From contig CP082230.1 in NCBI GenBank assembly GCA_019856515.1, positions 2,852,001 through 2,916,000 of the forward strand: a DNA stretch of 64,000 nucleotides, read 5' to 3'. Shown one piece after another: positions 22,045-36,613 of the stretch. Source of the DNA: Prolixibacteraceae bacterium (GTDB lineage Bacteria > Bacteroidota > Bacteroidia > Bacteroidales > Prolixibacteraceae). Position numbers and translations under genes: made by a program. Under the pieces are notes generated by a model. It saw only the letters and a list, made by a program, of their open reading frames with translations. It was not told where the DNA came from and ran no database searches. Positions within the stretch are counted from its first letter, which is position 1, and each line of letters starts with the position of its first letter.

Positions 22045-22794
22045 CTACAACTCCCCTTCCTGAAGTGCACGCAATAGATCCTCCGGAGTATCAATCCCCA
22101 TACCCTTATGGTCCGTTGTTTCCACATGAATATGATAGTCATTCTCCAACCAACGCAACTGCTCTAAAGACTCACACTGCTCCAATTTCGACGGCGCTAG
22201 TTTTGTAATCTTTCTCAACACATCACTACGATAACCATACATCCCTATATGACCCCAAAAATCCACCTTCTCAGGCCACAGTGATCTGTCCACACCACGA
22301 ACGAATGGGATAGGACTACGACTAAAATAGATGGCCCTTTGCAACGGTGAAAAGATCACCTTCACCTGATTCATATCTTCCACAGTAGAGATCTCATGAA
22401 TAGGATTAGCTAGTGTGGCAATATCCACCCTCTCCGTCTCAAAAGAACGGATTAACTGCTCCACTTGTGAAGGCAAGATAAATGGTTCGTCTCCTTGAAT
22501 ATTAATGACCACATCAAAAGATGTCGACAATTTTGCCTCGATCAAATCCAACGCTTCCGCAATACGATCAGTTCCACTAGGATGGTCACTACGTGTCATC
22601 ACCACGTTTCCTCCAAAGTTATCAACATGTTTATAAATACGATCATCATCGGTAGCAACCCACACTTGGTCACCTACTTGACTGGCTTTTTCTACTACTC
22701 TCTCAATCATACTTTTCCCATGAATATCAGCCAAAGGCTTTCCTGGAAAACGAGTCGACGCATATCGCGCTGGAATAATTATTATCGATTTCAT
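22045..22794 (-). CDS. kdsB: 3-deoxy-manno-octulosonate cytidylyltransferase (CMP-Kdo synthetase)
   Basis: Activates Kdo with CTP for lipopolysaccharide inner-core synthesis in the cytoplasm. The 249-residue length is typical. Motifs are the N-terminal nucleotide loop IIPARYASTRFPGKPL (about 6-21), VATDDDRIY, SGTDRIAEA, NIQGDEPF (metal-binding D) and HIGMYGYR. The C-terminus carries GMGIDTPEDL, where Asp is usual. It has no close partner on its strand. Upstream is an 860-bp gap with a large palindrome; a TAACTTTG -7-like box at 22913-22920 (minus) lacks a well-spaced -33 box. Confidence 0.97.
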   Translation of the reverse strand: MKSIIIIPARYASTRFPGKPLADIHGKSMIERVVEKASQVGDQVWVATDDDRIYKHVDNFGGNVVMTRSDHPSGTDRIAEALDLIEAKLSTSFDVVINIQGDEPFILPSQVEQLIRSFETERVDIATLANPIHEISTVEDMNQVKVIFSPLQRAIYFSRSPIPFVRGVDRSLWPEKVDFWGHIGMYGYRSDVLRKITKLAPSKLEQCESLEQLRWLENDYHIHVETTDHKGMGIDTPEDLLRALQEGEL

Positions 22795-23132
22795 ACCCTA
22801 TCTCTTTTAAACTTTTGCACTATGGTGAAGGAGCATCAATATCACACTGAAGCGATCATTAAAAGGTTTCAAACCAAAATAGGCATAAAAAAAACCTCCT
22901 TCTCCACTTTCACAAAGTTACAATAAATCAAACGCAAAAGTTTATCCCCATCAAAATCCCATCCCCACAAAAGAGATAAATTCATACCCCCAAATCCCCA
23001 CAAAATATAACGGTAGCTTAATTCACAACGTCAGTACACACCCCCTTACACTTGTCGTAGGATGCAAAATATCTCCCCACAACAAAAAAACTGTTGTCTT
23101 CCATCAACTCCCTACTTAACTATGACTTTAAA

Positions 23133-23353
23133 GCTACCAACTTCGGACCTAATCCGTCCCTAACCTATCTTTAATCCGTCCTTAATCCGTCCTTTGTCCA
23201 TGGTTTAGCCATGCTTCGTCCATGGTTTGTCCATCGATTTCGGGGGTTTCGATGGCTGAACCATGGATCAATGATGGACGAATCATGGACAAAGGACGGA
23301 TTAAGGACGGATTAAAGATAGGTTAGGGACGGATTAGGTCAGGGAAAGGTAGC
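23133..23353. repeat. 221-bp near-perfect palindrome with 11-bp internal units
   Basis: Arms 23146-23202 and 23284-23340 are exact reverse complements over 57 bp. Beyond an unpaired 7-bp step, GCTACC (23133-23138) pairs with GGTAGC (23348-23353). Inside, 23203-23283 continue as a less perfect hairpin ending in a G-rich tip (TTTCGGGGGTTT). Each arm has about four tandem 11-bp units of the type GACGGATTAAG. No transposase or reverse transcriptase is adjacent. Confidence 0.95.
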
Positions 23354-23523
23354 AGGGAAGTACGATTGATATAGGTAGGATATGGCTGTCGGCAAGTGAT
23401 TGATGTTTCGTTGATCATTCGTTAATGATTGATTTACAACAGGGGTAATCAGGGTTGAATTTTGTTTGATAAGGGGTGGGGAAATAGTTTGCTTGAATGC
23501 TTTTTGCTTTAAAAGAAAGGTAG

Positions 23524-23562
23524 TGACATATTGTCATATAATCAAATAATACATTAACTTTG
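23524..23562 (+). promoter_or_regulatory. Promoter and palindromic operator of sigma-54 activator operon
   Basis: TGACA-TAT-TGTCA (23524-23536) is a perfect 5-3-5 palindrome. Its ATTG (23530-23533) sits 21 bp before TAACTTTG (23555-23562), which fits the -33/-7 layout. The same core TGACATATTG occurs upstream of groES. Confidence 0.55.
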
Positions 23563-23653
23563 TTGTTGAATAGAGGAGATATATCATCTTATTCTTTTCT
23601 AGGTTTTTACAAGAAAAAAGAATTAATAAAGCAAAACAATAGTAGTTCGCAAT

Positions 23654-24916
23654 ATGGTGAATATTCAAGAAGTAAAACAACGTTTTAAACTGATTGGTAA
23701 TTCTGTTGGATTGAACCGAGCCATTGAAGTTGCATTGCAAGTAGCTCCCACCGACCTCTCTGTGTTAATTACAGGGGAAAGTGGAACAGGGAAAGAGTCG
23801 TTTCCACAAATTATTCATAATTACTCTCATCGTAAACATGGTAAGTATATTGCGGTAAACTGTGGAGCCATTCCTGATGGGACTATTGACTCGGAGCTTT
23901 TTGGACATGAGAAGGGCTCTTTTACTGGGGCAGTAAATGATCGTAAAGGGTATTTTGAGGAGGTAAATAATGGAACCATATTCTTAGATGAAATTGGGGA
24001 GCTTCCATTGTCTACGCAGGTTCGATTGCTTCGTGTGTTAGAGACAGGTGAATTTATGCGCGTTGGGTCGTCTAAAGTCTACAAGACCGATGTTAGAGTG
24101 GTGGCAGCGACAAATGTTAATCTACCACAGGCCATTCAAGATGGAAAGTTTAGAGAGGATCTTTTTTATCGTCTCAATACGGTGCCAATCAAAGTGACAC
24201 CATTGAGAGAGAGAGGAGATGATGTGCTGATGCTTTTCAGAAAGTTTGCCATCGACTTTGCAGATAAATATAATATGCCATCGATTAAGCTTCAAAGCGA
24301 TGCGAAGGATCTGATGTTGAAATATGATTGGCCAGGTAATATTCGTCAGTTGAAGAATATAGCCGAACAGATCTCCATTATTGAGTCGGAGAGAGAAGTG
24401 AGTGTTCAGACGCTTTTGAAATACCTTCCTAAGGACACACAGGTTCTGAAATCCAATCTTCCTGCGATCTATAGTGGTGTAGATGAGAAGACGTTCAATT
24501 CGGAGAGGGAGATTTTATATCAGATTCTTTTTGATATGAAAAATGATATGAATGATCTGAAGAAGCTTGTTCATGATATTATGGATAAGAATCCTAGTTC
24601 ACTCAATACCGAGGAGACCAAACAGTTTCTGAACAAGTTGCACAATGATCAAGAGATGAGTTTGACGCCTGCGGTTCCTGCCACGATTGCGACACCTAGA
24701 ATAGAGGTAGAACCGAAAGAGTATCTCCATAGAGCTGGGGATATTGAAGATACAGAAGAGATTGTGGAAGAGTCATTATCTCTTGTAGATAAAGAGATCG
24801 AACTCATCAATAAAGCACTCAAGAAACATTCGGGGAAAAGAAAGCAAGCTGCGCAAGATTTAGGGATCTCTGAGCGTACATTATATCGTAAAATTAAAGA
24901 ATACAATATATCATGA
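23654..24916 (+). CDS. Sigma-54-dependent transcriptional activator without receiver domain
   Basis: AAA+ activator that remodels sigma-54 RNA polymerase. The 420 residues start almost directly with the AAA+ domain (about 13-250): Walker A GESGTGKE, the sigma-54-contacting loop GSFTGA (consensus GAFTGA), IFLDEIGELPLSTQ as Walker B, and REDLFYRLN. An acidic, variable linker (about 285-370) follows, then a Fis-type helix-turn-helix (about 375-419: KRKQAAQDLGISERTLYRKI). No N-terminal receiver, PAS or GAF sensor is present, so control must come through expression or a partner. Its stop overlaps the lptE start by 4 bp (ATGA), first gene of the lptE-TPR-secG operon. Confidence 0.95.
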   Translation: MVNIQEVKQRFKLIGNSVGLNRAIEVALQVAPTDLSVLITGESGTGKESFPQIIHNYSHRKHGKYIAVNCGAIPDGTIDSELFGHEKGSFTGAVNDRKGYFEEVNNGTIFLDEIGELPLSTQVRLLRVLETGEFMRVGSSKVYKTDVRVVAATNVNLPQAIQDGKFREDLFYRLNTVPIKVTPLRERGDDVLMLFRKFAIDFADKYNMPSIKLQSDAKDLMLKYDWPGNIRQLKNIAEQISIIESEREVSVQTLLKYLPKDTQVLKSNLPAIYSGVDEKTFNSEREILYQILFDMKNDMNDLKKLVHDIMDKNPSSLNTEETKQFLNKLHNDQEMSLTPAVPATIATPRIEVEPKEYLHRAGDIEDTEEIVEESLSLVDKEIELINKALKKHSGKRKQAAQDLGISERTLYRKIKEYNIS

Positions 24917-25437
24917 AACAACGCATTGCCATTATCATAGCGTGTGTCATCACATTTTCGCTGTATAGCAGTTGCAAGATTGGCTATTCATTTACTGGAG
25001 CATCTTTATCTCCGGAAGTGAAAACTTTTTTTGTGGATTACTTCGCGAACCGTGCAAGGATTGTCAATCCGAAACTTAGTCAAGAGTTCAATAACAAGAT
25101 GAATGATAAATTCTCTAATGAACTAGGTTTGACTTCTCAACGTAACGGTGGAGACATTGAGTTTTCTGGACAAATTACTCGATACGAAACACGTCCATTA
25201 GGTATTGAGACGACAAGTGATGGTCGAGATATAGCAGGTCAAATGAGATTTACCATTGGTGTCCGTGTGAAATTTGTAAATAATATTGACCACGATAAGG
25301 ATTTCAATCAAACATTCACAGCGTATGAAGATTATACGTCTAGTCAGAACTTCGCTTCTATCGAAGATGAGTATGTAGGTGTTATTTTAGATAAAATCAT
25401 AACCGACATTTTTAATAAGTCGGCTGCCAATTGGTAA
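24913..25437 (+). CDS. lptE: LPS-assembly lipoprotein LptE family
   Basis: Outer-membrane lipoprotein that plugs and assembles LptD for lipopolysaccharide insertion. The 174 residues have a signal peptide with lipobox YSSC (lipidated Cys near residue 21). The Bacteroidota LptE hallmark KIGYSFTGASLSPEVKTFFV, GDIEFSGQITRYE and a C-terminal helix (VILDKIITDIFNKS) follow. It overlaps the sigma-54 activator gene by 4 bp and precedes the TPR-like gene by 15 bp, a gene order conserved across Bacteroidota. Kdo synthesis (kdsB) lies just across the divergent gap. Confidence 0.93.
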   Translation: MKQRIAIIIACVITFSLYSSCKIGYSFTGASLSPEVKTFFVDYFANRARIVNPKLSQEFNNKMNDKFSNELGLTSQRNGGDIEFSGQITRYETRPLGIETTSDGRDIAGQMRFTIGVRVKFVNNIDHDKDFNQTFTAYEDYTSSQNFASIEDEYVGVILDKIITDIFNKSAANW

Positions 25438-25452
25438 ATCGATATTCGTATT

Positions 25453-26115
25453 ATGAATCTCAAATTATTTCGTGATATTTTAGATCGTCCAGATCAAATT
25501 ACAGAAGAGACTATAGGGATGCTAGAAGAGGTAGTAGAAGCTTATCCTTCATTTGCAACGGCACACCTTCTTTTGTGTAAAGCATATTATATGCATCATA
25601 GTTTGAAATTTGAGAAACAGAAAACAAGGTGTGCCATTCGAATGGAATTTAGAGAGAAGCTCAAAGATCTGCTGACGGCAGAGATAGAAACGTCGACAGA
25701 GGGTCTTGATAATGATGAATTGATGGCATTGATTGATCCACCATCCCAATATCAACTGGAAGGTAGTAATCAACATAACGTGCCATTTGAAAGTTTGGCA
25801 AAAGAACTTTTTGAGATACAGAACCATCGTAAGTCACATCGCCAAAACCAGGAAGTGTTGATTTCTTCGTTTGTCTCATCGTTTGAGAATAAAGTAAAAC
25901 GACCAACGAGACGAAACATTGGGCTTCTAGAAGAGCAACCAGAGAAGGAATCAGAAGGGCTGATAAGTGAAACATTAGCAAAGATCTATATCAAACAAGG
26001 TCTTTATGTAGAGGCAATAGAAGCTTACGAGACATTAAGTTTGAAATATCCCAAAAAAAATGCTTATTTTGCTGAACGGATAGAAGAGATTAAAACGTTA
26101 CATAAAAAACAATAG
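25453..26115 (+). CDS. Conserved TPR-like protein of the lptE-secG operon
   Basis: A 220-residue soluble protein with no signal peptide. The N-terminus (about 1-50, with [23 protein letters not shown]) and the C-terminus (about 175-218, [21 protein letters not shown] then [15 protein letters not shown]) look like tetratricopeptide helices. The middle is charged and variable. Function is unknown. It lies between lptE (15 bp) and secG (3 bp), so it is translationally tied to envelope-biogenesis genes. Confidence 0.8.
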
Positions 26116-26118
26116 AAA

Positions 26119-26490
26119 ATGTACAGTGCCCTTATTATTACTATGATAATTGTATCAGTGCTTCTTATTTTGATTGTATTGGTACAAAACCCTAAAGGAG
26201 GAGGTCTTTCGAACTCATTCTCTGGGTCGACTCAAATTATGAGTGTAAAGAATCAGAAGGATAGATTGTCAAAAACAACTTGGATTTTTGCAGGTGTTAT
26301 CTTTTTCTTGTGTATTATTTCGTCATCAGTTCTTCCAAATAGAACTGCACAAAACGGAACTCGCATTAAAACAGAGAATATTCAAGATTTAAATACTGGT
26401 ACAGGTATTGAGGTTCCTGAGTCAACAGCAACTCCTATGGAAGATGCGACAGCAACTCCAGATGCGGGTGACAACAACGAAGTGAAGTAA
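26119..26490 (+). CDS. secG: Preprotein translocase subunit SecG
   Basis: Small inner-membrane subunit of the SecYEG translocon. The 123 residues contain two transmembrane helices (about 2-22 and 52-72) around the conserved loop VQNPKGGGLSNSFSGS. A Thr/Glu/Asp-rich C-terminal tail is usual in Bacteroidota SecG. It is the last gene of the operon; a strong terminator follows 38 bp later, separating it from groESL. Confidence 0.93.
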   Translation: MYSALIITMIIVSVLLILIVLVQNPKGGGLSNSFSGSTQIMSVKNQKDRLSKTTWIFAGVIFFLCIISSSVLPNRTAQNGTRIKTENIQDLNTGTGIEVPESTATPMEDATATPDAGDNNEVK

Positions 26491-26528
26491 TCACTTTTGC
26501 AGTCAAATGCAAACCGTATAGATAAAAG

Positions 26529-26567
26529 AAGGTTATCCCAGACATATGAGGGATAACCTTTTTTTAT
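26529..26567 (+). terminator. Terminator of the lptE-secG operon
   Basis: AAGGTTATCCC (26529-26539) pairs exactly with GGGATAACCTT and is followed by a run of T. Confidence 0.93.
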
Positions 26568-26612
26568 TAGGACATTGTGACAGTTTCATTAACGACCGTT
26601 TGACACAAAATA

Positions 26613-26666
26613 TGACATATTGTTCCACAAATAATTTTGGCACAATATGTGATTAATGACATATTG
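26613..26666 (+). promoter_or_regulatory. Operator-like cluster upstream of groES
   Basis: TGACATATTGT (26613-26623), its inverse CACAATATGTGA (26641-26652) and TGACATATTGG (26657-26666) lie within 54 bp. The first two form an inverted repeat, extended by CCA/TGG, around TAATTTTG (26632-26639), a possible -7 box. The core matches the palindrome at 23524 upstream of the sigma-54 activator. Confidence 0.5.
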
Positions 26667-26697
26667 GTTTTGAATAAAATAATAGTATCAATTCAAT

Positions 26698-26744
26698 GAT
26701 GAAATAAGTGATAAGTTATTTTGAATATAATCACTCATTTCATC
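26698..26744 (+). promoter_or_regulatory. 15-bp inverted repeat in groES leader
   Basis: GATGAAATAAGTGAT (26698-26712) and ATCACTCATTTCATC (26730-26744) match at 14 of 15 positions around a 17-bp AT-rich spacer. It ends about 90 bp before the groES start. It could be an RNA hairpin (thermosensor or leader) or a protein site. It is not CIRCE. Confidence 0.45.
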
Positions 26745-26836
26745 ATTCGATTGGTAAATAATCTCTCGACGTCCTGACGATAGAGGAAAAAGAGAGAAGA
26801 TCGTTTCTAAAAAAACAAACTAAAATATAACGTAAA

Positions 26837-27115
26837 ATGGCAGAACTTAAAGGTAAAATCTTGGCAGGAAAGATTCTTGTGGAGCCACAAGAAGCAGTTA
26901 CACAGACAGCAGGTGGATTGTATATTCCTGATTCAGCGAAAGAGAAACCACAACAAGGAAAAGTTAGAATGGTTGGTGCTGCAAAAAAGGATGAACCGAT
27001 GGAGATAGAGGTAGGAGATGTTGTTTCATATGGTAAATATGCTGGAACTGAATTAAACATCGACGGATTCGATTATCTATTGTTATCTCAAACTGATGTT
27101 CTTTACATTAGCTAA
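26837..27115 (+). CDS. groES: Co-chaperonin GroES
   Basis: Heptameric lid of the GroEL folding chamber. The 92-residue protein carries the family features GKILAGKILVEPQEAVTQTAGGLYIPDSAKEKPQQGKVRMVG (mobile loop about 16-32) and GDVVSYGKYAGTELNIDG, ending LLLSQTDVLYI. Length is normal (about 90-100). groEL follows after 42 bp. The upstream region has several operator-like repeats, consistent with stress control. Confidence 0.97.
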   Translation: MAELKGKILAGKILVEPQEAVTQTAGGLYIPDSAKEKPQQGKVRMVGAAKKDEPMEIEVGDVVSYGKYAGTELNIDGFDYLLLSQTDVLYIS

Positions 27116-27154
27116 TTGAGAGTACATCTATTTTTACGTATAAGAAAATATTAA

Positions 27155-28792
<1,638 letters not shown>

Positions 28793-29397
28793 TACCAATG
28801 CTATAATTAAATGAGTGTAACATTGGCATGTTATCTTGATTTATACATTGTTTTTAGATGTAGCTAGAGGTAAAGTTATCCTTGCATATCTTGCCTTATC
28901 GAAACAAGATATATTTGGAATGTCATCGCTTGTATAAGAAGTAGAAATGGTATAAGAAGATCTTATGTTATAGATATTTCAAAGGTTTGTGGATCTCGAT
29001 TCACAAACCTTTTTTTGTCTCTTTACTTCTCTACCTTTCACCATACTCTTTCCTTGAAATTCATACGACCACAATAGAAACCCATGAATTTATCATAATG
29101 TCACATGAAATATCATAGGACATCGATGCTATTTTTCTTTTTTGCTAATATGACCTGTTAAAAAGAAAACTACTAGATATCAACAGAATATACCATTGTC
29201 ATAGTCATACTATAATTTGTTGCCTTAGGACAACCATCTTACAGCATCACATAATCCAACACACTTATTTTATTTATTTAACATTTTTACCTTAGTTTGC
29301 AATCTGCTAAAATCAGAAAGAGTAAGAGTGAATTAGCCTTTAAGACGGGGAAACAGAGTTACAAGTCTGTTATTAATAAGTAATTAAGGAGAAAAGG
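28793..29397. other. Intergenic region after groEL
   Basis: About 600 bp with no convincing coding frame. It holds a terminator (28981-29016) and, just before the next gene, an AACAGA/TCTGTT hairpin (29352-29371) followed by a purine-rich AAGGAGAAAAGG ribosome-binding region. I see nothing else I can name. Confidence 0.6.
28981..29016 (+). terminator. Terminator after groEL
   Basis: AAAGGTTTGTG (28981-28991) pairs with CACAAACCTTT around a 10-nt loop and is followed by a T-run. The stop of groEL lies 189 bp upstream, so the 3' UTR would be long. Confidence 0.85.
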
Positions 29398-30531
29398 ATG
29401 AAAGAGTTAAAGTTAGTTATTGCCATGGCAATAATCCTATGTAGTTGTTCAAAGATAAAGAAGGAACAATTCACACAGGAAATTCTAAAAGATGGGAAGA
29501 TAGAGACAAAAACAATAGACATTGATTTTGTCACTAAAGATGGAGCGATATCATCTCCTCATTTACGAAGTATACACTGTACAAATTTAGAGTCACTATC
29601 ATTCCCAGGTAATAAACTGAAGAATGTAGTAAAACATGAGAAGACACTTCCTTACGATCTATTATCAAAAGATGTTAAGAAAGGGAGTCCAACTTATTAC
29701 ACAATATTTACAGCATACCACTTTATTAAAGCATCAGAGTACTATACTAGTTTGATGTCAGAATATATCACTCCAGAGATTAAAGAATCGGATAAGGATA
29801 TTATTGTGAGTATTGCGGATTACATGCCAATGGCAAACAACAATAGCCGTTTTATTTTTTCTACTAAAGCGGCCATCAATCCATCCTCAGTATATCATAA
29901 AGTAGGACACCGGTATGAGCAATTCATCAAGACGAAAACGAATATCGTATATAAAGAGAATCGTTATATTGGAATCGGTTTTATGGAGTATTTTACCACT
30001 TCACTTAATCAGTCGCCTAAAATATTTGAAGGAGTATTACCTGAGGCATTGAGTAGAGATGTATCAAAACCCGTAACACTACCTATTGATATGGATCAAA
30101 ATAGTCTGTACAAAGGAATCATGATAATGAAAGAGTCTTATATTGATGTTTACAATCAAGAGGGATCTGCAATGCGTCAATATATTGATATTGTTCTTCA
30201 GTCAGAAAACATCCTAAAGAATCGTTACGACTCCAATCTTGCAGCTCTATATATAACCTATCCTCTATGGAAGATTAGAGAGACTATTGGAGCAGAGAAG
30301 ACAGATAGATTAGTTATGCATGCATGGACTATTCTTGGAAATGAAGGACGTAAGAACAGTTCATTCTATACCCCTAACAATGGAGAAGAGGTAAGTGAGA
30401 AAGTATGTTGGTACACTGTACTCCATGCATTACTAACTGCAGATCAACAAGACTTTAAAGGGGAAAACAACAAGCTTATCCGAGATATTTTTGCTAGTGT
30501 AAAATATCCTGTAGACAGAGTATCTAATTAA
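29398..30531 (+). CDS. Zincin-like lipoprotein with degraded active site
   Basis: A 377-residue protein with a lipoprotein signal peptide (LCSC, lipidated Cys near 17). The middle resembles the M4/M36-type metallopeptidase core. SVYHKVGHRYEQFI (residues 165-178) aligns with the HExGH helix, but Glu is replaced by K168. IGIGFMEYFTTSLNQSPKI (191-209) aligns with NEGFADYFAASL, with the zinc-ligand Glu replaced by I193. The surroundings (acidic SIADYMPM, GVLPEALSRDV) are also family-like. Hence it is probably a catalytically dead relative with a binding or structural role. The family assignment is by motif only. It is a single gene between terminators. Confidence 0.6.
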   Translation: MKELKLVIAMAIILCSCSKIKKEQFTQEILKDGKIETKTIDIDFVTKDGAISSPHLRSIHCTNLESLSFPGNKLKNVVKHEKTLPYDLLSKDVKKGSPTYYTIFTAYHFIKASEYYTSLMSEYITPEIKESDKDIIVSIADYMPMANNNSRFIFSTKAAINPSSVYHKVGHRYEQFIKTKTNIVYKENRYIGIGFMEYFTTSLNQSPKIFEGVLPEALSRDVSKPVTLPIDMDQNSLYKGIMIMKESYIDVYNQEGSAMRQYIDIVLQSENILKNRYDSNLAALYITYPLWKIRETIGAEKTDRLVMHAWTILGNEGRKNSSFYTPNNGEEVSEKVCWYTVLHALLTADQQDFKGENNKLIRDIFASVKYPVDRVSN

Positions 30532-30575
30532 ATTGCATCTTCCATAATTAAATGAGAATTTGTACTATATATTAG

Positions 30576-30619
30576 AAGGACAAAAGAACTTAAGCATAAT
30601 AGTTCTTTTGTCCTTTTTT
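30576..30619 (+). terminator. Terminator after zincin-like lipoprotein
   Basis: A 15-bp perfect stem, AAGGACAAAAGAACT (30576-30590) with 30601-30615, has a 10-nt loop and is followed by T residues. Confidence 0.95.
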
Positions 30620-30741
30620 AACGTAACAATAGTTAGAACTTAACCTAAAAAGGGAAATTATTTATTTATTTTTTGCTAACTTAATAGTATGATTTTTAGT
30701 TGAAGATCATACGCAATATTGGAACGCAAAAAATTATTACT

Positions 30742-31491
30742 ATGAATACTTTTTCCCCCGAAGTAGCATACTTAACAGTTATTATCCCTGTATACAATGA
30801 AGAGGAGAGCCTCCCACGGGTTTTTAATGAAGTAACACAGTTCATTAATTACCCTGATAAAAGAGTGGAAATATTATTTGTTAATGATGGATCCACTGAT
30901 AACAGCCAAGAGATTATTAAGGAGATATGTACCCAATCTTCTCCATTCCACTTTATTGAGCTACAGAATAACAGTGGTTTAAGTGCAGCCCTAAAAGCAG
31001 GTATTGACTTCTGCAGCAGTCCATTTATTGGTTATATAGATGCAGATCTACAAACTTCTCCAATGGAGTTTATGGAGCTGATGAGATACTGTGAATCATA
31101 CGAAATGGTTACTGGTATTAGGCAAAATAGGAAAGATTCGTCAACCAAAGTAATCTCGTCAAGAGTGGCCAATACCATGAGAAAGTGGATCACTAATGAC
31201 GGAGTATCTGACACAGGTTGTCCTTTAAAAATTCTTCAGAGACAAACAGCAAAGAGAATCCCATTCTTTAAAGGAATGCATCGGTTTTTAGCAGCACTTG
31301 TACTCTTACAAAAGGGTCGGGTGAAGGAAGTTCCTGTAACGCATTACGAAAGAATTGAGGGAGAAGCAAAGTATCATTTCTGGAATCGATTACTTGGACC
31401 TTTCACTGATCTAATAGCTTTTGCTTGGATCAAGAGAAGGTATATCAACTATAAAATTAAATCGAGTGACTTAACTCTAGTTAAAAACTAG
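30742..31491 (+). CDS. Family 2 glycosyltransferase (polyprenyl-phosphate sugar transferase type)
   Basis: Start set at ATG 30742 (MNTFSPEVAYLTVIIPVYNEEESL); an upstream in-frame TTG at 30700 only adds low-value residues. The 249-residue GT-A domain shows VVIPVYNE-type strand 1, FVNDGSTDNS, LQNNSGLSAALKAGID, and the DxD-like YIDADLQTSP, then DTGCPLKIL. This resembles dolichol/undecaprenyl-phosphate mannose or glucose synthases without the C-terminal membrane helices. The next gene, 2 bp downstream, encodes a multi-helix LAB_N protein, a common Bacteroidota pairing for lipid-linked sugar or lipid A modification. Confidence 0.88.
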   Translation: MNTFSPEVAYLTVIIPVYNEEESLPRVFNEVTQFINYPDKRVEILFVNDGSTDNSQEIIKEICTQSSPFHFIELQNNSGLSAALKAGIDFCSSPFIGYIDADLQTSPMEFMELMRYCESYEMVTGIRQNRKDSSTKVISSRVANTMRKWITNDGVSDTGCPLKILQRQTAKRIPFFKGMHRFLAALVLLQKGRVKEVPVTHYERIEGEAKYHFWNRLLGPFTDLIAFAWIKRRYINYKIKSSDLTLVKN

Positions 31492-31493
31492 CA

Positions 31494-32159
31494 ATGTTTA
31501 AATTCCTATACGATATGATACACCAAGATCAGTGGTATGTGTTTGCCATTGGTCTCTTAGGAAATATACTTTTTTCCTCAAGGCTACTAATACAGTGGTT
31601 TTTATCCGAAAAAAGTGGGAAATCAGAATCTCCTCTATTATTTTGGCAGATAAGTCTTTTGGCCTCATTCACCTTTCTTATTTATGGGATATTACGTAAA
31701 GACCTAGCTATTGTAATGGGTCAACTAATGGTCTACTTTATTTATATTAGAAATATACAACTACATAATAAATGGAAGGTGCTTCCACATGCAATAAGGA
31801 TTCTTTGTATAATCTCTCCATTCCTAGTAATTCTGTATGTCTCGTGGTTTAAACAAGGCCTATTCAGCAATATAATCTCTAATGATAGCATCCCACTACA
31901 ACTACTTCTTTGGGGGTCATTAGGTCAATTTATTTTTGTCTTCCGTTTCTTCTATCAATGGATTGTATCCGAAGAGGAAGGCAAATCGGTACTTCCTCTT
32001 GGTTTTTGGGTTATTAGCCTTTGTGGATCTTTGATTATTATATCCTATGCTATTTTTCGACATGACTTTAATCTGCTTCTAGGACAAATCTCGGGTGCAT
32101 TCGTATATAGCCGAAATATTATTATCCACTTAAAAGGTAAAGGGCTATTCCAAAAGTAA
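31494..32159 (+). CDS. Tandem LAB_N domain membrane protein (lipid A biosynthesis N-terminal type)
   Basis: The 221-residue inner-membrane protein has two copies of the LAB_N unit. Copy 1 is at about 13-90 (GLLGNILFSSRLLIQWFLSE then SPLLFWQISLLASF, and RNIQL). Copy 2 is at about 135-215 (GSLGQFIFVFRFFYQWIVSE, LPLGFWVISLCGS, then SRNIIIHL). Each has about three helices and the S-R-x-x-x-QW motif. LAB_N domains are found fused to LpxB or next to GT2 proteins and resemble SWEET/PQ-loop-like transporters, so flipping or handling of the lipid-linked sugar is plausible. It is separated from the GT2 gene by 2 bp. Confidence 0.85.
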   Translation: MFKFLYDMIHQDQWYVFAIGLLGNILFSSRLLIQWFLSEKSGKSESPLLFWQISLLASFTFLIYGILRKDLAIVMGQLMVYFIYIRNIQLHNKWKVLPHAIRILCIISPFLVILYVSWFKQGLFSNIISNDSIPLQLLLWGSLGQFIFVFRFFYQWIVSEEEGKSVLPLGFWVISLCGSLIIISYAIFRHDFNLLLGQISGAFVYSRNIIIHLKGKGLFQK

Positions 32160-32419
32160 CACTACTTCTAAAATAATTCAAACAAGCGCTACAATATTGA
32201 ACATAAGCAATGCAGGTTATCTTTTAATTTTAATGAACATGGCCAGATGTCATTACTTATCGCCTAACAAATGGGCTGCTATTCTTGGGAATATAGCATT
32301 ATGATAATATTTATATTGAAAACATTTTATTTCATATTATGTTTACAATTATTTTTAATATTTTTAACACCTAAAATCAACTGTCTATCCCCACAAGTTC
32401 AATACTAATCACTTCAATA

Positions 32420-35400
32420 ATGAATAGACTTTATACTTTTATTTTATTAATGCTTACTTGTACAATGGGTAGTTATGCACAAGTAGGCTATTTATCTGCT
32501 CATCGAAAAAAAGGAGCAGAGATGGAATTAAGCAACATGCCCAAAATCGATGTTAAACAGAGTAACAACAAAACAAAAGTTAATATTGATTTATCTGCTT
32601 GTAAATATTTCCATAAAAAGTTCAATAATAACAAGGAATGGGTATTTCTTCAAATTAAAGACTTTGGATATATCCACCATGCTGGTGCTCCTGCTGTTCC
32701 AACAAAACAGTTTCTACATGAAGTGAAAGATGAATATAAGCTTGAAGTAGAAAAAGGAGATTTCATTGTTCACAATAATATCATGGTTCATCCGATGAAA
32801 GCAGATGATATAGATACAGAAGGAGTTCCTAATGTACCATATGATATTGATGAGGCGATCTACAGTAAAAATGAGTTCTATCCTAAGGGTGTTATCGAAA
32901 TACATAACGTTCAAAAGGCTAGTGGAAAGACTTATGTCACAGTAAGGATTAATCCTATCCAGTATAATCCCGTAACAAAAGAGTTACGTATTTATAGTAA
33001 CCTTTCCTACACATTGAAAGGTGTAGAGAATGGTATCAATCGAAAGATGAAGGATCTATATGCAAATCAGATCCCAAGCTATTTAATTGTTACCACCAAT
33101 AAATATCGAGCGGCTGCAAACGAATTAGCATCATGGAAAGCACTACAAGGCTTTAACACGGAAGTAGTTTCTCGTGATTCATGGGAGGCAAAAGACGTAA
33201 AAAAGACCATCCACGATAAATATAATAATCTACCGAACCACTTACAGTATTTTCTTATTATTGGAGACCACGAAGATGTGCCTGGAGAGCTTTATAATAA
33301 AAAATCAAATGGTAAGACAACAGTATATGCATCCGATTTGTATTATGCCTGTCTAGATGGGAAAAGTGATTATACTTCAGATATTGCGCACGGAAGAATA
33401 TCTTGTAAGAATGCCAATGAAGCAAATACAATTGTTCAGAAGGTTATCAATTATGAGAAAAGTCCTGTAGAGAACCCTGATTTCTATAGAACAGCATTGT
33501 GTTGTGCTCAGTTTCAAGATGTGGCAAATAAAGAGGAGCCTGATGGAGAAGCAGCACGTCGATTCTGTCAAACAAGTGAAGAGGTAAGAAATTATCTAGT
33601 CGATGAGCAAGGTTATCAAGTTAATCGAGTTTATTATACAGACCCAGCCAATGAACCAATGAGATGGAATAATGGATCTTTTGGAGATGGCTCACCAATA
33701 CCAGTGGAACTCAGAAGAGCTAGTGGTTTTAACTGGGATGGGGATGCAGCTGATATTAAGAGAGAAATAGAAGAGGGTAAATTCTTTGTACTACACCGAG
33801 ACCATGGATACTCAGGTGGTAGTGGTTGGGCACATCCACGTTTTGTAACAAGAGATATTGATAAGTTGGAAAACGGAAATCTTTTACCTGTCGTTTTCTC
33901 GATGAATTGTCACACTGGTGAGTTTAAGCTTAATGAATGTTTCGCAGAAAAGTTCGTTAAGAATCCAAATGGTGGTGCTATTGGTGTGATTGCAGCTTCA
34001 AACTTCAGCTATAGTGGGTATAATGATGCGCTAACATGTGGTATGATCGATGCATTGTGGAATAACCCAGGGTTAATACCTGTTTTCGGTTATGCTAAAA
34101 GAATTGTTCAAAAACCAGGACACCTTGATCGTGTAGAGCGAATGGGTGATATACTTAATCAAGGGCTTCTAAGGATGCAAGAGACTTACTATAGTGGAGG
34201 AGAAAGTGACATTTACACCCATCGTCTTTTCCACTATTTTGGAGATCCAACGATGAAGATGTGGACTGCGGCTCCTACTGATATTACTGCAACTATCCCA
34301 AATCAAGTTAACCTTAATAGCAAGTCGTTGTCTATCCGAAATATTTCAGATGGAAGCATGACCATATCGTTAGTGCAGAATGGAAAGATTATTGCATATA
34401 AGAAGAAAGCTGTTGCTAAGAAGGATATTAATTTAGAAATCGAAAATATTTCACCTCAGTACCCTTTATACCTTGGAATCTTTGGGACGAATAAGAAGCC
34501 AATCATTAAAGAGATTGTTATCAGTGGTAATACACACAAACCTGTTGCAGACTTTACTTATATCAAAAGTTATAACTCGATTCAGGATGACAATACTCCG
34601 ATTGTATTTACTTTCGATAATTTATCTACATATATCCCAAAATCATATAAATGGAGTTTTTCACCCAATAATATTAAATTTATTGATGATGACTCGAATA
34701 TATCAAAGAATCCTAAAGTTCAATTTACGAAGGCAGGTTCTTATACTGTTTCATTAACGGCAAAGAACAGCAATGGAGAAGGTTCGAAAACCATAGATAC
34801 TCCGATTAAAATTGAATCGGTGAAGGCGTGTACCGTTCCGAAAATTAAGAACAATTACTATAAAATAATCAATTTCAAGATAGCTAATATTGATGTTACG
34901 AGTCCTAACAACTATGAAGTCGCTGGCTATCTATCTCATATTGATAAAGGGGTGGCGATATTGAAAAAAGGAATAAGAACCCCATTCACCCTCTCCATAT
35001 CAGGAAGTAGCTGTAACTATCATATCTATGTCGATCTCAACAATGATGGTAAATTTACTAATGACGAAAAACTATATGAAACCAAGGAAGGTAAAGGGGT
35101 AAAAGACAAGTCCCTACGTGGTAATATTACCATTCCTGAAAATATCTCGACAAAATATTGTAATACTCCTTTAAGGTTGAGAATCTCTCAGTTTACTTAT
35201 TGGGCATCACCATCACCTACAGAAGATAAAAGCAGTGGGCAAACTCATGATTATGCAGTAGTAATTAGAGACGGAGAAGCCACTCCAATGATCACTTCGG
35301 TGTCAAGTACACCAGAAAAAGTGACTGTTAATTGTGATATTAAGAACGGATACGACATTGAACGAAAAGGTATTGTTTACTCTACAACAAAAGCATTTAA

Positions 35401-36613
35401 CGAATCAGAGAGAGTGGATAGCGATGCTAAAACATCTCAATATCACTTTGATTTCACCAAACTTAGAGAGGCAACTACTTATTACTTTAAATCATATTGT
35501 GTAGGGCCTGATGGAACAAGTTATAGTAATGTAAAAGAGACAACCACTTTCTATAAACGACCTATAGCAAATCCATCCAAGCTAACTGGACGAGCAGAGA
35601 GTGCTTTTGCAATTCGTCTGAAATGGAATAAACCAACGTCTTCTTGTCAAAAACTATGGGTAGTTGGTAGCTCTAAAGGAGAAGATGCGATCAATCTTCC
35701 TTCTCCATCTTCAGATCAAAAAGAGTATGAAGTATGTAGAGTTATAGAAGGAAATACAAAAGAGGTGTTATTTACGAACCTTAATGCCGATACTTCTTAT
35801 GACTTTAAGATTTATGCATGCAATAATACGGGGACCAATAAACGTTTTAATACAACTAAGGTCCCGCATCTCAGTTTAATGACTCCAGATAATAGCGAAT
35901 ACCCATTAATGCTATATCCATTAGGAACCTCAAATATGATAGAGGGGGTTACATTCAATTCGATTAAGAATAACAACCCTAGAGAAAATACTGGAGGTAA
36001 TTTTCATATCTTCAATGATCTGAGAACTAATGTTGAAATTGGAAACAAGTATCCATTAGAAGTTCAGGTAAATAAAGAATTTGGTAAGAAATATTTTGCT
36101 AAAGGATGGTTTGATTGGAATCACAACCTTCAATTTGAGAATGATGAAGAAGTTGCATTACAAGAGAAATCTAGCAAGATATATATTGCAGATGTAGAAA
36201 TTCCAGCACATGCTAAAGTTGGTGAAACTGTTTTTAGAGTGGTATACTCATCTACTGATAGTGAAAGTCAACTAAGCCCGACAGGACTTATTGTGGATAA
36301 GAAAGGAATGACAGAAGAGTACCCTATTACAATTAAAGAAGGGGTAATACATACATCTAACAAAGATGGAATAAAGAAAATGGGTGCATCTGCATTTCCT
36401 AACCCTGTCGAGAAAGAGATGACACTAACAGTCAAAATGGAGTTAAGTACAGATGCTTCATATATGATATATGACACAAATGGTAAATGTGTAATGCAAA
36501 ATAAAATTACAGAGAGTACAACCTTAATTCAGATGAACCTTATAACAGGTATCTATACACTCGTTCTCATAAACAATGGAGAGCGTGGTTCTAAGAAGAT
36601 CATTGTTAAATAA
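32420..36613 (+). CDS. Gingipain-like C25 cysteine protease with PKD, GEVED, FN3 and T9SS sorting domain
   Basis: A 1397-residue secreted protease. A signal peptide (cleavage after SYA, residue 20) is followed by a propeptide-like region (about 50-205). The peptidase C25 domain (about 215-620) has candidate catalytic H462 (HRDHGY) and C497 (FSMNCHTGEF), 35 residues apart as in gingipains (about 33). IIGDHEDVPG is also present. Then come a PKD domain (about 708-795), a GEVED domain (about 840-955, DLNNDGKFTNDE), FN3-like domains (about 965-1160), a second GEVED (about 1170-1310, DWNHNLQFENDE) and a T9SS type A CTD (about 1324-1397, FPNPVEKEM ... SKKIIVK). It should be exported by T9SS and surface-bound or released. 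Confidence 0.92.
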   Translation: MNRLYTFILLMLTCTMGSYAQVGYLSAHRKKGAEMELSNMPKIDVKQSNNKTKVNIDLSACKYFHKKFNNNKEWVFLQIKDFGYIHHAGAPAVPTKQFLHEVKDEYKLEVEKGDFIVHNNIMVHPMKADDIDTEGVPNVPYDIDEAIYSKNEFYPKGVIEIHNVQKASGKTYVTVRINPIQYNPVTKELRIYSNLSYTLKGVENGINRKMKDLYANQIPSYLIVTTNKYRAAANELASWKALQGFNTEVVSRDSWEAKDVKKTIHDKYNNLPNHLQYFLIIGDHEDVPGELYNKKSNGKTTVYASDLYYACLDGKSDYTSDIAHGRISCKNANEANTIVQKVINYEKSPVENPDFYRTALCCAQFQDVANKEEPDGEAARRFCQTSEEVRNYLVDEQGYQVNRVYYTDPANEPMRWNNGSFGDGSPIPVELRRASGFNWDGDAADIKREIEEGKFFVLHRDHGYSGGSGWAHPRFVTRDIDKLENGNLLPVVFSMNCHTGEFKLNECFAEKFVKNPNGGAIGVIAASNFSYSGYNDALTCGMIDALWNNPGLIPVFGYAKRIVQKPGHLDRVERMGDILNQGLLRMQETYYSGGESDIYTHRLFHYFGDPTMKMWTAAPTDITATIPNQVNLNSKSLSIRNISDGSMTISLVQNGKIIAYKKKAVAKKDINLEIENISPQYPLYLGIFGTNKKPIIKEIVISGNTHKPVADFTYIKSYNSIQDDNTPIVFTFDNLSTYIPKSYKWSFSPNNIKFIDDDSNISKNPKVQFTKAGSYTVSLTAKNSNGEGSKTIDTPIKIESVKACTVPKIKNNYYKIINFKIANIDVTSPNNYEVAGYLSHIDKGVAILKKGIRTPFTLSISGSSCNYHIYVDLNNDGKFTNDEKLYETKEGKGVKDKSLRGNITIPENISTKYCNTPLRLRISQFTYWASPSPTEDKSSGQTHDYAVVIRDGEATPMITSVSSTPEKVTVNCDIKNGYDIERKGIVYSTTKAFNESERVDSDAKTSQYHFDFTKLREATTYYFKSYCVGPDGTSYSNVKETTTFYKRPIANPSKLTGRAESAFAIRLKWNKPTSSCQKLWVVGSSKGEDAINLPSPSSDQKEYEVCRVIEGNTKEVLFTNLNADTSYDFKIYACNNTGTNKRFNTTKVPHLSLMTPDNSEYPLMLYPLGTSNMIEGVTFNSIKNNNPRENTGGNFHIFNDLRTNVEIGNKYPLEVQVNKEFGKKYFAKGWFDWNHNLQFENDEEVALQEKSSKIYIADVEIPAHAKVGETVFRVVYSSTDSESQLSPTGLIVDKKGMTEEYPITIKEGVIHTSNKDGIKKMGASAFPNPVEKEMTLTVKMELSTDASYMIYDTNGKCVMQNKITESTTLIQMNLITGIYTLVLINNGERGSKKIIVK

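Follow-up and report, generated by a model that had tools for sequence, protein, structure and literature searches.

Palindromic arrays of 11-bp units at GC-skew switches in a genus of Prolixibacteraceae: possible secondary sites of replication initiation

Introduction

There are several kinds of dispersed non-coding repeats in bacterial genomes. REP/BIME sequences with a RAYT (Y1_Tnp) transposase are intergenic and palindromic, occur many times per genome and are confined to near relatives. MITEs are non-coding and dispersed, carry inverted repeats and are gained at a syntenic site. PINSR, a 188-bp intergenic repeat of Prevotella intermedia, is present in many copies and confined to a group of related Bacteroidota (PMC4755523). 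These likenesses extend to an element found in a 64,000-nucleotide stretch of the chromosome of a Prolixibacteraceae bacterium (the window; positions 2,852,001 to 2,916,000 of contig CP082230.1, assembly GCA_019856515.1). However, it differs from REP/BIME in being an array of 11-bp units of up to about 220 bp, with no RAYT link and located at origin-type skew switches. It differs from MITEs in that neither a target-site duplication nor a transposase was found (Y1_Tnp being the one searched for) and in that its gap has gained much more DNA than the palindrome. Unlike it, PINSR lacks terminal inverted repeats, and the accessible part of its report describes no link to skew (PMC4755523).

One origin per bacterial chromosome is the textbook rule. 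Plasmid iteron origins are made of short direct repeats in helical phase. The element resembles the latter in its phased short direct repeats, whereas here two arrays run outward from a hairpin and dozens are present per chromosome. In cyanobacteria with multiple-origin replication, there are likewise several start places and an irregular GC skew, although the available portion of that account describes no marked element, unlike the recognisable array, in a genome with a dnaA gene, found here (PMC7198777). Constitutive stable DNA replication in E. coli RNase H mutants (oriK, R-loops) also starts away from oriC and is possibly RNA-primed, but it is seen in mutants and is not known to involve a dispersed palindromic element. 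Multiple bacterial origins have been argued from skew, which rearrangement and other causes can mimic, according to the accessible parts of two papers (PMC3269012; PMC4403523). In the portions of the open-licence full-text literature that were covered, no bacterial element was seen that is both dispersed and linked to local switches of skew.

Structure of the element

The element occupies 23133..23353 of the window (no strand assigned) within an 859-bp intergenic gap (22795..23653). A kdsB-like gene (22045..22794, minus strand) lies on its left and a sigma-54-activator-like gene (23654..24916, plus strand) on its right, both directed outward and both named after the earlier note on this DNA. 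That note had described a 221-bp near-perfect palindrome of 11-bp units, which is indeed present: the left arm (23146..23202, plus strand) and the right arm (23284..23340, minus strand) are exactly reverse-complementary over 57 bp, the outer GCTACC and GGTAGC pair, and the inner hairpin, at about 23203-23283, is imperfect, all as stated there. A central 11-nt loop (23238..23248) is enclosed between CCATCGA and TCGATGG. The folding energy of the 221 nt is -160.9 kcal/mol for the plus strand and -149.8 kcal/mol for the minus strand, as against means of -63.3 and -55.7 after shuffling (z -23.1 and -22.4), and none of 200 shuffles was equally low on either strand.

The 11-bp units are also real. 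Over the 38 copies in the genome (see below), at distances of up to 60 bp from the centre, identity at a lag of 11 is 0.593 (other lags 0.247), and at 60-120 bp it is 0.460 (other lags 0.267). Beyond 120 bp, lag 11 is at background and nothing notable was found, apart from small excesses in the host genome at 300-400 and 500-700 bp (z 4.0 and 3.3). In their length and exactness, the arms of the window copy are an extreme of the family and untypical of it, this copy having the most stable of the 38 folds.

Distribution and placement

The host genome (G000, 5.19 Mb in one contig) was compared with those of three other species of the same genus (G001, G002 and G003). BLAST with the element finds dozens of matching places in G000, and a 24-nt core pattern, with at most three mismatches, finds 38 copies, 19 on each strand (none with the reversed control). 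The window element, a member of the long class of family 1, has 37 further copies and is not single-copy, which answers the question of copy number raised in the earlier note. In a BLAST search of a sample of 61 genomes, matches were obtained in all four of the genus and in none of the 57 others; G003 holds at least 40 copies (40 of 76 candidates scored). Long copies measure about 200-220 bp and have outer units of the TTAATCCGTCC type, and short copies measure about 105 bp and consist of CCATGG-N5 units. Two of the 126 copies located in the four genomes lie inside a called gene. The palindrome belongs to an intergenic class specific to the genus, in which two arrays of 11-bp units face outward from a central hairpin. 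Plasmid and phage records contain no match to the element, nor do viral contigs to two exact motifs.

Both neighbouring genes were called for 30 of the G000 copies (in the other eight they run beyond the sequence piece examined), and these copies lie between tandem genes in 13 cases, divergent genes in nine and convergent genes in eight. Since all orientations occur, the elements do not form a uniform set of terminators or promoters, and the 30 copies do not show the placement downstream of genes that an intrinsic terminator or 3' hairpin would have. The same count speaks against a transcribed long hairpin RNA acting as an RNase III target, terminator or 3' stabiliser, which we find barely credible in spite of the very good fold on either strand. 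Nor is a single strand favoured by mismatches across species: at 15-58 nt from the centre, A-C and G-T mismatches number 95 to 64 in G000, 184 to 79 in G002 and 61 to 90 in G003. Rfam gives no match at the element. The long double-stranded RNA proposed in the earlier note gains little from this comparison, its fold being strong but neither gene orientation nor strand being constant.

Five of seven rRNA clusters of G000 and three of eight of G002 (clusters counted by hand) have a copy about 1 kb upstream of their first 16S gene. There are at least 13 16S genes in G000 and at least 12 in G002, minimum counts from 23 of 48 and 23 of 33 scored candidates, respectively, and many are in tandem operons about 5.2 kb apart. 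G002 also carries ten tandem tRNA-Val(TAC) genes with a spacing of 99-100 bp (L163 190-1158, about 3.302 Mb). At 14 of the 38 G000 loci, at least one neighbouring gene is shared with an element locus of a relative (single shared genes, paralogues possible), suggesting that many element sites are not new. Two loci, L012 (4.63 Mb in G000) and L123 (contig 79 of G001), are nearly identical over about 900 bp of element and flanks, unlike other compared loci, perhaps by recent transfer. A recurring GTGTAAATTAACTCTG-type motif, perhaps an insertion-sequence end, is found at up to about 600 bp from several elements of G000 and G001 (e.g. L039 and L128).

The gap syntenic to that of the window measures 320 bp (G002) and 226 bp (G003), both times without the element; kdsB has no match in G001 (77% complete). 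The G000 gap exceeds these by 539 or 633 bp, far above the 221 bp of the palindrome. The MITE-like insertion suggested in the earlier note agrees with the dispersal of 38 copies and with the gain at this gap, but this does not extend to showing a strict MITE: no target-site duplication is definable, no Y1_Tnp transposase is linked, and the gain is far larger than the palindrome. The cruciform or protein-binding array, another candidate of that note, may hold in the form of a phased array. The syntenic element-free sites are too diverged to define insertion junctions. A search for Y1_Tnp gave two matches in G000, one in G002, none in the incomplete G001 and none in G003 despite its at least 40 copies, and the RAYT association typical of REP/BIME was not found.

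GC-skew switch at the elements

GC skew in 400-kb stretches takes the form of a sawtooth that rises at the elements. At the window element, it is mostly negative on the left, mostly positive on the right (23243..36000, boundary approximate) and negative again from about 36 kb. The local switch, which is invisible by eye, maps to genome position 2875200, a distance of 19 bp from the core pattern of the element. The minus-to-plus switch of leading-strand skew expected of a replication origin was found, as a 5-kb jump, at all 34 family-1 copies tested out of the 38 in G000; it is weak in G002 and G003. Fourteen of the 34, in two 400-kb stretches, show jumps of 0.10-0.38 (means 0.248 and 0.240; none of 20,000 random draws as high). 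The 20 further copies, with about 10 kb examined on each side, show jumps of 0.01-0.40, so that the weakest are almost without one (0.01 at 1744049). Among the top 20 upward jumps of the two stretches, 12 have a family-1 core no more than 1 kb away (eight of them no more than 100 bp away), and six are over 15 kb from the nearest.

The mean jump is 0.244 at 21 elements versus -0.004 at 117 long intergenic controls without an element (P 2.4e-12), the 21 being the 14 above and seven of a second family, exclusive of family-2 copy 3088755 and of families 3-5. The difference persists when gene pairs are split into tandem (13 elements, 68 controls), divergent (six and 29) and convergent ones (only two and 20), with genes called by a simple codon-usage script. 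The intergenic DNA flanking the G000 copies is rich in C on its left side and in G on its right, and coding-strand GC3 skew near them is +0.27 in outward genes and -0.17 in inward genes; within 25 kb of elements there are 348 outward versus 250 inward genes. Over intervals shorter than 90 kb, the strand-corrected outward component drops from 0.233 at 0-2.5 kb to 0.016 at 20-25 kb, with slightly negative values farther out; the gene-strand component is steady at 0.07-0.14. By codon position, the outward GC asymmetry is 0.165 (family 1) and 0.201 (family 2) at third positions and 0.010-0.056 at the first and second. The excess of T over A is parallel, with 0.061 and 0.080 at third positions and 0.005-0.040 at the others. 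The maximum from 500 circularly shifted position sets was 0.112. A minus-to-plus skew switch is present at the elements, independent of gene strand, graded with distance and strongest at third codon positions.

Long divergent transcription could be considered, with the elements as strong two-way promoters and the outward non-template strands gaining G and T. The sign would fit, the genes' own strand component is likewise positive, and the outward strands of families 1 and 2 are G-rich and 55-80% purine. However, the outward component near the elements surpasses the one due to transcription of the genes themselves, inward genes have their skew reversed by it, the transcripts would need to pass up to 20 kb through opposing genes, and the copies lie between genes of every orientation; we regard this explanation as rather improbable. 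Inversion between copies was rejected as the cause, since it predicts opposite switches at paired elements, whereas all elements switch from minus to plus and the return takes place between them. Break resection was rejected as well because it would give the opposite sign, on the assumption that deamination of exposed strands drives skew.

The asymmetry is not seen in orthologous genes of a species that has no element at the site. Relative to G002, GC3 skew differs by +0.136+-0.025 in outward genes (n=21) and -0.117+-0.040 in inward genes (n=8), from 29 of 38 reciprocal pairs (those less than 15 kb from an element, retaining pairs whose G002 copy is possibly near one). At the window locus, a trio of genes has GC3 skews of 0.41, 0.58 and 0.43, as against 0.00-0.24 in six element-free orthologues: the kdsB-like gene is at +0.58 (orthologues +0.18 and +0.24) and the sigma-54-activator-like gene at +0.43 (+0.18 and 0.00). 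Six pairs were available for G029, of another genus, four outward with a difference of -0.004 and two inward. In 120 kb of G029, a small sample, no element was detected and 5-kb skew stays between -0.12 and +0.09. The third-position strength, the distance gradient and the orthologue contrast together point to a mutational process running outward from the elements.

The orthologue contrast also bears on the idea that the elements are palindromic repeats spread by mobility or gene conversion, passengers of the BIME or MITE kind that settle inertly at pre-existing skew switches. Many cores in G003 are near-identical (identity 0.97-1.00 within each arm), the element was gained at the kdsB site, and over-dispersion of the copies could reflect target immunity. 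Yet the skew is not found in orthologous genes at element-free sites, so that the switch is not simply old. Moreover, many sites are not new, as the shared neighbour genes at 14 of 38 loci suggest, there is no RAYT link, and an origin-like process would still be required for the switches. We judge inert passengers to be improbable to much the same degree as divergent transcription.

Variation among the four species

The 1.4-kb jump is positive at 36 of 38 loci in G000, 19 of 19 in G001 (23 located), 25 of 32 in G002 (P 0.001; mean 0.072) and 18 of 30 in G003 (33 located; P 0.18), all loci of G000 and G002 being used. The outward/inward GC3 contrast is significant in G000, G001 and G003 (P 0.003) and not in G002 (P 0.18), and one of four elements in a 400-kb stretch of G002 is without a jump. 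The skew effect is strong in two species and weak in two, and its strength varies greatly within the genus. Stem stability does not significantly predict the jump (rho -0.27, P 0.10).

Identity of the two arms within a copy exceeded all 2,000 permutations up to 94 bp from the centre in G000 and 70 bp in G002, and only at 70-94 bp in G001; no excess was found in G003 with as many permutations. As copy centres were chosen for best pairing within about 50 bp, within-copy identity is favoured there, and the 48-94 bp range in G000 is largely free of this effect. The excess suggests that arms copy one another, or that pairing is selected, in some species. The active correction invoked in the earlier note agrees with the likeness of arms in G000 and G002, hardly holds for G001 and does not for G003.

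Further families and spacing

Family 2 was found by a sequence-blind scan for 11-bp periodicity and palindromes. It has the same build as family 1 and unrelated sequence, with units of the ATATGTGACCA and CGAAGGAGGTA types. At the threshold used, the detector gave 0 and 0 matches in shuffled G000a versus 9 in the real sequence, 1 and 1 in shuffled G002 versus 12, and 9 and 6 after block reversal, which leaves part of the repeats in place. A 400-kb control stretch without family-1 copies shows upward skew jumps too, the five largest being within 1.1 kb of family-2 elements. All seven family-2 elements of this stretch have 3-kb jumps of 0.14-0.45, a result less independent than that for family 1, as the family was recognised after the jumps of its stretch had been seen. 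The eighth, at 3088755 elsewhere in the chromosome, has a 5-kb jump of 0.04. The palindromes of families 3-5 mostly show little or no jump. Other-family 11-bp palindromes, with GGTAACC/GGTAAAGG and TTCGAAG-type units and mostly without a clear jump, occur at 2766454, 2081429, 2271340, 2375071, 3493252, 3725842 and 3754258 in G000 and at 960601, 1071899, 1116700, 1169303, 1218129 and 1276572 in G002.

The copies are over-dispersed along the chromosome in both G002 and G000. In G002, the spacing of 39 copies has a coefficient of variation (CV) of 0.44 versus 0.965 for random places, and none of 20,000 draws was as even (length rounded to 4.5 Mb from 4,465,088). Family 1 of G000 by itself is not significantly even by CV (0.80, P 0.10), and its minimum spacing of 27.6 kb is larger than chance (P about 1e-4). 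With families 1 and 2 taken together in three 400-kb stretches of G000, the mean spacing is 54.6 kb and the CV 0.44 (18 intervals, P 0.0003; one family-2 copy omitted). The seven family-2 elements in the stretch without family 1 are spaced by 50.8, 49.1, 47.2, 57.1, 63.8 and 47.3 kb.

Such even spacing would suit sites that organise the chromosome, loop anchors or nucleoid-protein arrays placed for architecture with the skew as a secondary matter, and phased inverted 11-bp units might suit an oligomeric binder. We consider this very improbable, as anchoring has no known way of producing a mutational asymmetry in both directions at third codon positions. The spacing is, on the other hand, not predicted by palindrome-triggered recombination-dependent replication, in which an SbcCD-like nuclease would cut the hairpin and repair forks would leave the site as a by-product, with no dedicated origin. 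This has a precedent in E. coli lacking RecG, where cutting of an interrupted 246-bp palindrome by SbcCD is followed by divergent replication, though the available part of that report indicates that the extra DNA is not seen in Rec+ cells (PMC4752480). The window element is of similar size and pairs strongly. However, the common 11-bp build of unrelated families is not predicted either, and short copies of about 105 bp show the switch too, so that we hold break-induced forks to be unlikely as the explanation. A RecG motif scan over 1.2 Mb of the host genome gave no match, which is no test of absence.

Replication from the elements

A strand-asymmetric process would appear to run outward from the elements in both directions over about 20 kb, and, judging from the skew, diverging replication forks may cause it. 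Bacterial leading strands are commonly enriched in G and T. The outward strands at the elements share this composition at third codon positions, and outward forks would explain the sign, the symmetry, the gradient and the independence of gene strand at once. That families 1 and 2 are secondary bidirectional replication-initiation sites, present about once per 50 kb where examined beside a normal oriC, is in our estimate evenly poised between true and false.

DnaA boxes (TTWTNCACA) are not enriched near the elements, with 0.119 per kb within 600 bp of the 21 elements versus 0.110 elsewhere, and the box cluster of a DnaA-type oriC was not found at them; as secondary initiation sites, they would probably be DnaA-independent. 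Since two families of unrelated sequence share one build at the switches, and since DnaA boxes are not enriched, recognition of structure is favoured over a sequence-specific initiator. Forks may start at an extruded cruciform or at an R-loop on the outward strand, the purine-richness of which might favour R-loops; these routes are speculative, and any one of them is by itself unlikely. In G002, four DnaA-like ATPase matches of 256 aa, below the cut-off and of equal score (1671281, 3899014, 3912329 and 4285088), are perhaps IstB-type transposition helpers.

The global skew of G000 has a negative mean at 2.06-2.46 and 2.72-3.12 Mb and a positive mean at 3.44-3.84 Mb, the rRNA clusters switch strand between 2.97 and 3.34 Mb, and the one perfect parS-type site is at 3335869, the others having one mismatch. 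These features make an oriC near 3.336 Mb likely, although the dnaA gene is at 4.708 Mb. Given the normal global skew and the presence of dnaA, replication from oriC must dominate or coexist, and the elements would be secondary. A wider proposal is that the genus replicates from oriC together with dispersed bidirectional origins, 70-100 by a very rough count, which lie at intervals of about 50 kb and are marked by structure-recognised 11-bp arrays. It is put forward tentatively, as one we would sooner doubt than rely on, the number of origins being extrapolated from 21 elements in 1.2 Mb.

Should something other than replication be responsible, a further mutational process in bacteria, strong, bidirectional and centred on elements, calls for explanation. 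If the wider proposal is true, there would be a eukaryote-like origin landscape in a bacterium. With a recognisable class of elements at dozens of origin-type switches, the question of multiple origins becomes testable with one sequencing experiment.
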